From Acidobacteriota bacterium (GTDB lineage Bacteria > Acidobacteriota > Blastocatellia > UBA7656), in NCBI GenBank assembly GCA_016201275.1, contig JACQDB010000122.1, positions 1 through 64,000 on the forward strand: a stretch of 64,000 nt of DNA, in the 5' to 3' direction. Made by a program: the position numbers and the translations under genes. Positions 14,714 to 55,862 of this stretch are shown here, piece after piece. The notes beneath the pieces were generated by a model. The model was given only the letters and a program-made list of their open reading frames with translations. It searched no databases and was not told the origin of the DNA. Numbering within the stretch: position 1 is the stretch's first letter; each line of letters starts with the position of its first letter.

Positions 14714-15403
14714 ATGATGAATGAGAGAACCATCAAAACGCGAACTTTAATTTTTGCCTGTTGCCTGTTGCCTTTGGCCTTCCTGGCTTCGGCTTGTCGT
14801 GAAGATATGCAGAATCAACCGAAGTACAAGCCCTACCGACCGGGGGCGTTTTTCAAAGACGGGCAATCCGGTCGCCAGTTGATAGACGGCACGGTGGCGC
14901 GTGGGCATTTGAACGATGACCCGCTGTTTTACACCGGCAAAATCCCTGAAACCGGCAACCAGAGCCAATCTCAGGGCGCGATGCCCAGCGAGTTCAAAGG
15001 CTTCACCGCGACCTTTCCCATCGAGGTGACCGCCGCGACGCTGACGCGTGGACAGGAGCGTTTCAATATTTACTGCGCGGTTTGTCACGACCGCACCGGC
15101 ACAGGCAATGGCATGGTGGTGCAACGCGGCTACAAAAAACCGCCGTCCTTTCACAGCGACCGTTTGCGGCAAGCGCCGGTCGGCTATTTTTTCGATGTCA
15201 TCACCAATGGCTTTGGCGCGATGCCCGATTACGCGGCGCAGATTCAAGCGCGTGACCGCTGGGCTATTGTCGCCTATCTGCGCGCCTTGCAGTTGAGCGA
15301 AAACACCAATGTGAATACCTTGTCGCCCGACGAGCGCAAGAAACTGGACAGCGGCGCAGGCACAACCGAATCCAAGACCGAAAAAGGAGAGCAACATCAA
15401 TGA
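14714..15403 (+). CDS. actE: Alternative complex III monohaem cytochrome c lipoprotein ActE
   Basis: A 229-residue periplasmic cytochrome c lipoprotein. The signal peptide ends in the lipobox LASAC (Cys near residue 28). One haem site CAVCH lies near residue 120, and the GAMPDYAAQI segment supplies the likely Met ligand. ActE is one of the electron-exit cytochromes of the complex. The hydrophobic core of the signal peptide (FACCLLPLAF) is encoded by a 7-bp repeat array at 14752-14779. Two ATGs in tandem (14714 and 14717) are possible starts. The stop overlaps the actF start (ATGA). Confidence 0.94.
   Translation: MMNERTIKTRTLIFACCLLPLAFLASACREDMQNQPKYKPYRPGAFFKDGQSGRQLIDGTVARGHLNDDPLFYTGKIPETGNQSQSQGAMPSEFKGFTATFPIEVTAATLTRGQERFNIYCAVCHDRTGTGNGMVVQRGYKKPPSFHSDRLRQAPVGYFFDVITNGFGAMPDYAAQIQARDRWAIVAYLRALQLSENTNVNTLSPDERKKLDSGAGTTESKTEKGEQHQ
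14752..14779 (+). repeat. Heptamer array encoding the ActE signal-peptide core
   Basis: Four 7-bp units TTTTGCC, TGTTGCC, TGTTGCC, TTTGGCC fall inside actE. They are the reverse-complement type of GGCAAAA and read FACCLLPLA. Confidence 0.85.
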
Positions 15404-16617
15404 TGGATGCTGCCTACACAGCGCCGCCGGAACTGGACCGCTTACAACAACGCGCCCTCCTCGTAGGAGTGGTGGCGCTGGGCTTAACCGTAGCGGGCGC
15501 TTTTTTAAATCGCGAGCAATTCTTTCGCTCCTATCTGTTGGCCTATGTCTATTGGATAGGCATTTCTCTGGGCTGTTTCGCCATTCTGATGATTCAACAT
15601 CTGGCGACCGGCGCGTGGGGCATCGTCATACGCCGCCTACTGGAATCGGCGACGCGCACTTTTCCGCTCGGCCTGGTGCTGTTTGTGCCGATAGCCTTGG
15701 CCTTGTTTGGCGGCCATCTCTATATCTGGACGGATGCCAATTTCGTAGCCCACGACGCCATTTTGCAGGACAAAGCGAAGTATTTGAATGTGCCGTTTTT
15801 CTTAGGCCGCACCGCTTTATATTTTTTCATATGGTTTGTCATCGCTTACTTTTTGAACAAGTGGTCGCGTCAACAAGACGAAGCGTCTGACCCGAAAGAG
15901 ATGAAACGCAAGATGCAGGATTTGAGCGGCCCCAGTCTGGTACTGCTGGGCGGCACCATGACCTTCGCTTCGATTGACTGGGTGATGTCTTTAGACCCGC
16001 ACTGGACTTCGACCATCTTCGGTATTTTGTTTATGGGTGGGCAGGCGCTTTCGGCAATGGCCTTTATCATTACCATGATTGTTTTTCTGGCGAACTTCAA
16101 ACCGATGAAAGAGGTCATCGCCGGACGGCATTTGAATGACCTCGGCAAATTGATGTTGGCCTTTGTGATGTTGTGGGCATACTTTGCCTTCTCGCAATTT
16201 TTGATTATCTGGTCGGGCAATCTGCCGGAAGAAATTCCCTGGTATCTCAATCGTTTGTCGGGAGCGTGGAAGCTGCTGGCCGGGGCGATCATTCTGTTTC
16301 ATTTCATCCTGCCGTTCTTTCTGTTGTTGCCCAGAAAAGCCAATCGCAATCCGCGCCTGCTGGTCACGGTCGCTTTGCTGATTATTGTGATGCGCTATGT
16401 GGATTTGTATTGGTTAGTCGGCCCACAGGTGTCGCACGAAGTGGGCGGCAAGATGAATGCGGCGTTTCATTTCAGTTGGATGGACATCGCCGCGCCCGTA
16501 GGCGTAGGCGGGATTTGGCTTTGGTATTTTCTTACGCAGTTGAAAAAGCTGCCGCTGCTGCCCATCAATGAGCCGCAGTTGGAAGGCGCGTTAGGCGAAG
16601 GAGCCGGTCATCACTAG
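15400..16617 (+). CDS. actF: Alternative complex III membrane subunit ActF
   Basis: A 405-residue integral membrane protein with about ten helices, matching ActF, the second NrfD-like membrane subunit of alternative complex III. Helix blocks include YLLAYVYWIGISLGCFAI, HLATGAWG, FPLGLVLFVPIALALFGGHLY and WAYFAFSQFLIIWSGNLPEE. It overlaps actE by four bases (ATGA), so translational coupling is likely. Its stop codon TAG at 16615-16617 is formed by the left TA flank plus the first base of an inserted 123-bp element; without the insert the stop would be TAA. Confidence 0.94.
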   Translation: MMDAAYTAPPELDRLQQRALLVGVVALGLTVAGAFLNREQFFRSYLLAYVYWIGISLGCFAILMIQHLATGAWGIVIRRLLESATRTFPLGLVLFVPIALALFGGHLYIWTDANFVAHDAILQDKAKYLNVPFFLGRTALYFFIWFVIAYFLNKWSRQQDEASDPKEMKRKMQDLSGPSLVLLGGTMTFASIDWVMSLDPHWTSTIFGILFMGGQALSAMAFIITMIVFLANFKPMKEVIAGRHLNDLGKLMLAFVMLWAYFAFSQFLIIWSGNLPEEIPWYLNRLSGAWKLLAGAIILFHFILPFFLLLPRKANRNPRLLVTVALLIIVMRYVDLYWLVGPQVSHEVGGKMNAAFHFSWMDIAAPVGVGGIWLWYFLTQLKKLPLLPINEPQLEGALGEGAGHH

Positions 16618-16739
16618 AGCGGTTTTCATATGTGTGTACGGAACACCTTATCGTTGAGCAGCAGTCTTCGACTGCGCGCCGGTCAGAGACCGCCGCTCAA
16701 CGGGTTTGATATTTCAGTAATCTCAAACCAAAATCGCTC
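16617..16739 (+). mobile_element. 123-bp MITE-like element, copy A, TA-flanked
   Basis: A 123-bp sequence begins GAGCGGTTTT and ends AAAATCGCTC (terminal inverted repeats with one mismatch), flanked by TA on both sides (16615-16616 and 16740-16741). An internal dyad CGTTGAGCAGC...CCGCTCAACG can form a hairpin. A second copy of the same length lies in inverted orientation at 55722-55844, about 85% identical by hand count. TA duplication is typical of IS630/Tc1-mariner-type transposition. No transposase is encoded. Confidence 0.85.
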
Positions 16740-16761
16740 TAAAGAAAGCACAAAAGGTTTT

Positions 16762-17292
16762 ATGGCTAAACATGAGATGGATGAAGTACCGGATGTTTCG
16801 TACATTCGCAACGTCGGCGTAGCGCACGAAGAGAGCGATCTGAGTTTGGGCGGCATCGGCAAATTCGTCATACACCTGATCGTCTTGGTGGCGGCTTCGG
16901 CAGTGATTGTTTATGGAATGTTCAAATATTTTTCGGCGCAGGAGTACGCGCAGGAGAAGAGCGAACGGCCTTCGACCTTGTTGAAGCGCGAACAAAGAGC
17001 CAGCGGCGAGGTCAAAGATATATTCCCCGAACCGCGCTTGCAGACCTTGCCGATTCCCGACCTTGCCGCCTATCGCGCTGCCGAAGAGTACAAGTTGGAA
17101 AGCTATGGCTGGGTGGATAAAGAGAAAAGCCTCGTCCGCATACCGATTGAAGAGGCCAAGCAAAAATTTCTTGAAGAGATGAACGCCAAGAGCGCGGCAA
17201 GTGCGTCAGCAGCGCAAATGAAAACGGCGGCAGCGGCGCAAACCCAAGCGCCATCAGCGCCCACCAAAGTGCCGATGCCAGGGAAGCCGTAA
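16762..17292 (+). CDS. Single-TM protein of the act-cox operon, unknown
   Basis: A 176-residue protein with one membrane helix (about residues 32-55) after a cytoplasmic N terminus, then a periplasmic part and an Ala/Gln/Pro-rich tail. The block GWVDKEKSLVRIPIEEAKQKF is characteristic of small proteins found next to cytochrome oxidase genes in Acidobacteriota and related phyla; their role is unknown, perhaps in assembly or supercomplex contacts. ATG 16762 is chosen because the longer frame enters the inserted element; AAAAGG precedes it. Confidence 0.8.
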   Translation: MAKHEMDEVPDVSYIRNVGVAHEESDLSLGGIGKFVIHLIVLVAASAVIVYGMFKYFSAQEYAQEKSERPSTLLKREQRASGEVKDIFPEPRLQTLPIPDLAAYRAAEEYKLESYGWVDKEKSLVRIPIEEAKQKFLEEMNAKSAASASAAQMKTAAAAQTQAPSAPTKVPMPGKP

Positions 17293-54392: not shown

Positions 54393-54945
54393 ACCAACGA
54401 TTTCCTCAGTAAAGATGGTGGAGTAAATGACCTGCAAGACTTGAGTGCTTCGCCCAGACCCTGTACGGGCGACCACCGCAGGATCGCTCGTACCCGGTTG
54501 CACGTTATTTAGAGGATGTTGCAGAAATGGATGTTCTGCCCAGATATTGTGTGTGATAGTTTAGCCATCTACAACATATGGGCGATTGCGGGAACTCTGC
54601 GACACTCTCTATTTACTTCACCATCCTAACCACGAATAAAATCGCCTTCCTCAATTGGCTCTCGCCAACGTGCGATTGCTACGCCGCTAGCCTGTAATCC
54701 AAACGTCAGCACTGATCGTCTCTTGCGGCTAATCGGGCTACGGTCGAGAGGCTCTATGGACTCGCTCGCTACGCGCCCAGCAAGCGCATCAGAAAATTTC
54801 GCGTCTCTGAAACTATTGCGAAAAGCGTAGCGTAAAGGGCTGCAACAACTGAAAGGTCAAAGTGAGCGCGATAGGTAAAAGAATGATTTTCACCTCATGC
54901 CGCTGCTAGACTCGAAAAAAAAATCTGACTCAGGAGGTGTAGTTC
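54393..54945. other. Gene-free stretch with a REP-like palindrome
   Basis: About 550 bases with no credible ORF. It contains the palindrome at 54463-54493 and, at its right end, CAGGAGGTG, the ribosome binding site of the gene at 54946. Confidence 0.6.
54463..54493. repeat. REP-like palindrome
   Basis: GTACGGGCGACCACCGCAGG followed by ATCGCTCGTAC forms a dyad. It is closely related to 21171-21200 (GTACGGGCGACCA...TCGCTCGTAC) and less so to 17420-17450. Confidence 0.75.
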
Positions 54946-55703: not shown

Positions 55704-55862
55704 GAAATTCCGGCACGCTTAGAGCGGTTTTGGTTTGAGATTACGGAAACCTCAAAGCCGTTGAGCGGCGGTCGAAGACCTTCGTGCGGTCGAAGACCGC
55801 TGCTCAACGATAGCGCGTTCCGTACACACCTATGCAAACCGCTCTAAGCGTGCCGGAATTTC
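55704..55862. repeat. Perfect palindrome split by the inserted element
   Basis: GAAATTCCGGCACGCT-TA at 55704-55721 and TA-AGCGTGCCGGAATTTC at 55845-55862 are exact complements. Without the 123-bp insert and one TA, they form a continuous 34-bp perfect palindrome just after the CXXCH gene, a likely transcription terminator or REP. Confidence 0.85.
55722..55844 (-). mobile_element. 123-bp MITE-like element, copy B, TA-flanked
   Basis: This has the same length as copy A (16617-16739) and is in inverted orientation, with terminal GAGCGGTTT/AAACCGCTC and TA on both sides (55720-55721, 55845-55846). The internal hairpin GTTGAGC...GCTCAAC is kept, with paired changes in the loop region. It has no ORF of note and no transposase. 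Confidence 0.87.

Follow-up and report, generated by a model that had tools for sequence, protein, structure and literature searches.

A 123-bp MITE with IS630-type ends at the stop codon of actF in an acidobacterial respiratory operon

The DNA analyzed here, referred to as the window, is a stretch of 64,000 nucleotides from an Acidobacteriota bacterium (contig JACQDB010000122.1 of assembly GCA_016201275.1). It carries a respiratory operon in which actF, encoding a 405-aa subunit of alternative complex III (match to PDB ActF chain 6lod_F, E = 4.8e-91), is preceded by the genes for ActD and an NrfD-type ActC and followed by those for COX2 and COX1. An initial annotation had placed a MITE-like element of 123 bp exactly at the actF stop codon, and such an element is indeed found there, with a TA dinucleotide on either side (Table 1). 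The junctions read ...CATCAC TA/GAGCGGTTTT...AAAATCGCTC/TA AAGAAAG..., where slashes mark the limits of the element. As annotated, the TA flank and the first base of the element, which contributes the final G, together form the TAG stop of actF (16615–16617), and both actF and the next gene are intact.

Table 1. Features of the actF locus, of the wider MITE family, and of related elements (positions refer to the window unless a contig position or another locus is named)
Feature	Position	Strand	Basis or remark
123-bp MITE	16617..16739	+	end A to end B on + strand; part of 68-copy strict set
Left TA of target duplication	16615..16616		first two bases of actF stop; sequence and single-TA empty sites of sister copies
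Right TA of target duplication	16740..16741		sequence and single-TA empty sites
Left terminal inverted repeat GAGCGGTTTT	16617..16626	+	end A continues CATATGTGTGTACGG; same end in full-length IS630 L200, 23/25 bases of family consensus
Right terminal inverted repeat GAGCGATTTT	16730..16739	-	end B continues GGTTTGAGATTAC; same end in IS630 of L189, 23/25 bases of family consensus
actF, alternative complex III subunit	15400..16617	+	PDB ActF chains; neighbours ActD, NrfD, COX2, COX1
Next operon gene, intact	16762..17292	+	start 20 bases past right TA; translation; homologue directly after actF in G002
Second MITE copy in window	55722..55844	-	TA at 55720-55721 and 55845-55846; identical to third copy at contig position 65945, 10 kb apart
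Second MITE-like family (~102 bp), example sites	window 54510-54611; contig position 64857-64957; L002 1335-1437		
Full-length IS630-type elements, similar ends, TA flanks	L189, L192-L195, L198, L200, L218, L219		1009-1046 bp

The ends of the element form terminal inverted repeats (TIRs) of 10 bp, 9 of which pair in this copy; across the 68 strictly defined copies described below, pairing ranges from 0.96 to 1.00 at the first nine positions. This copy deviates from the family consensus at 13 of 123 positions, and it is too short to hold a transposase gene. Folding is strong relative to shuffled sequences, both as DNA (z = -6.8 for 16610–16745) and as RNA (z = -6.6 for 16617–16739), with an RNA folding energy of -50.8 kcal/mol. 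The internal hairpin reported initially is retained in refined form, since the fold is an imperfect palindrome over nearly the entire element and more than a local hairpin. An RNA family search with the element returned nothing above gathering score.

Further TA-flanked copies, which had been anticipated, are abundant. Under a strict pattern (TAGAGCGGTTT-N88..118-AAACCGCTCTA, with no more than two mismatches per end), 68 complete copies were found in the 6.84-Mb genome, and the reversed control pattern gave 0 matches in the same genome. Both orientations are present among the copies read. Relaxed criteria gave 43 copies in 1.14 Mb of fully read contigs, and 32 of these are strict, which suggests a whole-genome total of ~90; the contigs were picked for holding copies, a choice that should have little effect on the strict-to-relaxed ratio. 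Local statistics given below for the 43-copy set are based on these 1.14 Mb of stretches. Divergence from the consensus is 3–13 of 123 positions for most copies, and one pair of copies, separated by 10 kb, shows no differences, so the family appears to have spread over some time and has perhaps moved recently.

Some copies occur in unusual arrangements. For instance, locus L002 (1434–1627) holds a partial and a complete MITE in tandem, adjoining an element of the ~102-bp family described below, and L160 (1501–1528; G000:C46:102861) is a minimal, TA-flanked element of 24 bp with little beyond two inverted repeats. At L009 (282–408) and L026 (1502–1628), two copies of another repeat each carry the MITE at one and the same point but in opposite orientations, which reflects either two separate insertion events or an inversion. 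The genome also contains a second family of MITE-like elements, ~102 bp in length; its ends read TAGAG[CG]GTG..., and it gave 54 matches in 1.26 Mb.

The nature of the flanking TA is revealed by several MITE copies that interrupt other repeats. Uninterrupted copies of these repeats carry one TA (e.g., CTACTCATAGGTTC, GATGCTTAAAGTC, and CCCTAAATGTTG), and read-through empty sites with a single TA include CTCATAGGTTC, GCTTAAAGTC, and CCCTAAATG. Because the uninterrupted repeats read through with one TA, the TA is a target duplication and lies outside the element proper. Targets conform to YTAR in 58 of 68 copies and to CTAG in 27 of 68, the latter being 13.5 times the intergenic background. A preference for CTAG is reported for IS630 (Tenzen and Ohtsubo 1991, as cited in PMC2170065), and cut-and-paste insertion at TA has been demonstrated for ISY100 of the same IS630 family (PMC2170065).

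None of the 43 copies lies inside a called gene, although more than half of the preferred sites are genic. Intervals between convergent genes hold 14 of 37 copies, versus 16 percent expected (p = 0.001); genes were called by a simple script, and these gene-position figures are approximate. Stop codons are occupied by 3 of the 43 copies, versus 2.3 expected given the measured target preference, and enrichment at stop codons was therefore rejected. The special status that the initial annotation implied for the stop codon is not confirmed, and landing on one is a chance event that happens to be harmless. One more stop-codon copy (C19) lies outside the 43-copy set. At the stop-codon copies TAG is rebuilt whether the empty site has TAA or TAG; the stop survives because the element starts with G at either end, so that either target yields TAG. 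If the element at actF is removed and a single TA left, the flanks read CAC TAA AG, and the original stop was probably TAA. At another locus (L153, 1500–1530; G000:C2:60441), a 505-aa open reading frame takes its final codons and its TAG stop from a truncated MITE end.

No element separates actF from the next gene in the nearest relative, G002, where the two overlap (TGATG). An actF junction that lacks the element is thus present in a relative, as had been envisaged, but it is too diverged for the literal empty site CACTAAAG to be read. The two genes are spaced by 144 bp in the present genome, versus the overlap in G002, so that any translational coupling would be lost. We infer that the insertion was near-neutral and that any influence on expression of the downstream operon genes is mild at most. 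It could be argued that the copy has been kept as a regulatory hairpin of the respiratory operon, i.e., as an attenuator, RNA-processing site, or stabilizer between actF and the downstream oxidase genes, given its position within the operon, its RNA fold of -50.8 kcal/mol, and its separation of genes that overlap in G002. However, pairing is preserved mostly through identity of sequence, double-sided changes number 14 in 2607 paired cells, and there is no clear sign of selection on the RNA; the terminator search at the element revealed no terminator-like site; and most copies are at other places, those between convergent genes being in excess. A regulatory role is consequently judged unlikely. 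Also quite improbable is a compound proposal, whereby the terminal G and TA target render the MITE harmless at TAA and TAG stops and landings within operons are kept for an effect of the hairpin on the gene that follows, whose translation it would uncouple or tune.

A search by sequence in 57 relatives found none that has the element, with three short matches (28–39 bp) in the element core. Within the phylum (396 genomes), the end pattern has 160 occurrences in this genome and a single one elsewhere, in G019, which possesses a 168-bp MITE with like ends and a different core (L173, 1501–1668). Besides L173, the same ends with other cores were seen in other genomes at L185 (920–1020), L187 (78–179; Chloracidobacterium sp. 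UBA7656), and L186 (196–343). Such same-ended short elements with different cores indicate that MITEs have arisen from this end type more than once. The match at L184 lies downstream of a gene and consists of a hairpin with trailing T's; it was therefore not accepted as a MITE.

No transposase of the corresponding IS630 group was found in the 162-contig draft assembly with the L189 orfB and profile A1 as queries. Likewise, searches of the genome for PF13358, DUF4096, and DDE_Tnp_1 gave no element with MITE ends; IS630-like genes are present, but without such ends. L069 was rejected as a parent, as only a diverged MITE adjoins it. A search of the genome for MITE ends with a non-MITE interior, which could miss a parent sharing the excluded bases, gave no parent; it yielded MITE variants, the remnant L153, the 24-bp TIR-only L160, a diverged composite (L157), and a lone end (L168). 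None was found in the plasmids and viral contigs searched. Since the assembly lacks such a transposase, the helper is no longer present, falls in a gap of the assembly, or is foreign. MITEs can outlive their helper.

Autonomous elements with these ends do exist elsewhere. A scan for the end pattern across 84,980 species genomes identified L189, a complete 1046-bp element of an alphaproteobacterial Micropepsaceae MAG, with a transposase carrying DDE_3 and HTH_Tnp_IS630 and a match to MITE end B at 23 of 25 bases. Its transposase, used as a query, led to eight more complete elements of 1009–1015 bp, all TA flanked and from the same class as the acidobacterial host. For example, the end of L200 reads GAGCGGTTTTCATATCAGTGTACGG, compared with GAGCGGTTTTCATATGTGTGTACGG for the MITE. 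The NCBIfam model for IS630 family transposases (NF033545) matches all three transposases tested; that of L200 scores slightly under the cut-off and the other two score over it. These GAGCGGTTTT-ended IS630 elements (L200, L218, and L189) have ends, TA flanks, and YTAR-type targets in common with the MITE, but they measure ~1 kb and contain a transposase gene, in most cases spread over two frames, whereas the MITE is a 123-bp palindrome without a gene. The initial suggestion that an IS630 element with like ends might be found therefore holds for other genomes, at up to 23 of 25 bases, but not for the organism's own assembly.

A helper from another TA-duplicating family, such as the IS427 group of IS5, would make the likeness to IS630 ends coincidental. 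IS5-group elements can also duplicate TA, and no IS630 with MITE ends resides in the genome. Even so, this origin is very unlikely: DUF4096 genes number 0 in the genome, none of its four DDE_Tnp_1 loci has a matching end pair, and the full-length IS630 elements, which match the ends at up to 23 of 25 bases and share the target, largely refute it. Spread as a REP/BIME-like extragenic palindrome by a REP-associated tyrosine transposase is scarcely credible, since the element, albeit short, palindromic, extragenic, and of high copy number, has precise ends with TIRs and a TA duplication in empty sites that contradicts it, and REPs are described as palindromes of 20–40 bp (PMC3733652), some of them linked to tyrosine transposases (PMC2817692).

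The element is very probably a non-autonomous MITE of the IS630 (Tc1/mariner) kind, moved in trans by a transposase of a GAGCGGTTTT-ended IS630 group into the TA of the actF stop codon, leaving the protein unchanged. It is short and devoid of a transposase gene, bears TIRs, duplicates its target as seen in empty sites, is present in many copies, and has a same-ended autonomous relative in other genomes. A TA duplication with CTAG preference was found, as for an IS630 derivative, though the draft assembly gave no resident helper. As far as sequence can indicate, mobilization in trans by the IS630 family is well supported because of the CTAG and YTAR targets and the IS630 elements with matching ends, and the IS630/Tc1-type mobility proposed in the initial annotation agrees with these, with the copies, and with the single-TA empty sites. 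The transposase, acting in trans, would have recognized ends of ~25 bp, excised the element, and inserted it at a TA, preferably within CTAG, thereby doubling the TA. At this locus the target would have been the TA of the actF stop codon TAA, and a G at either end of the element would allow TAA or TAG stops to be rebuilt as TAG without change to the protein.

These copies represent a new family within a known kind of MITE. Nezha of cyanobacteria is an IS630-type element. By description it is alike in being a bacterial MITE reported to be active (as cited in PMC10969869). RUP (repeat unit of pneumococcus), for which IS630-Spn1 is the proposed mobilizer, is ~107 bp long and present in ~110 copies (PMC2229807, PMC3049150). 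Its description is similar with respect to a short TIR, TA duplication, IS630-like ends, and a tight fold (PMC2229807, PMC3049150), and, as with the MITE copies here, it is over-represented between convergent genes (PMC3049150). Among such elements, PMC2229807 names RUP as the sole one with IS-like ends. Unlike the present family, RUP has been described from streptococci, shares its genome with an IS630 whose ends resemble its own, and is able to insert into genes, whereas here no helper was found and 0 of 43 sampled copies lie in a called gene; the two are set apart by description. Correia/NEMIS of Neisseria are likewise short MITEs with TA at their termini, but have a TIR of 24 bp rather than 10 bp (PMC2229807).

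The family is a data-rich example of IS630-driven MITEs in Acidobacteriota, in which empty sites, target preference, and donor-type IS elements are all visible. It also illustrates a simple rule, namely that a TA target combined with a terminal G lets elements land on stop codons with the protein unchanged. With regard to annotation, it accounts for many of the short palindromic repeats of this genome.
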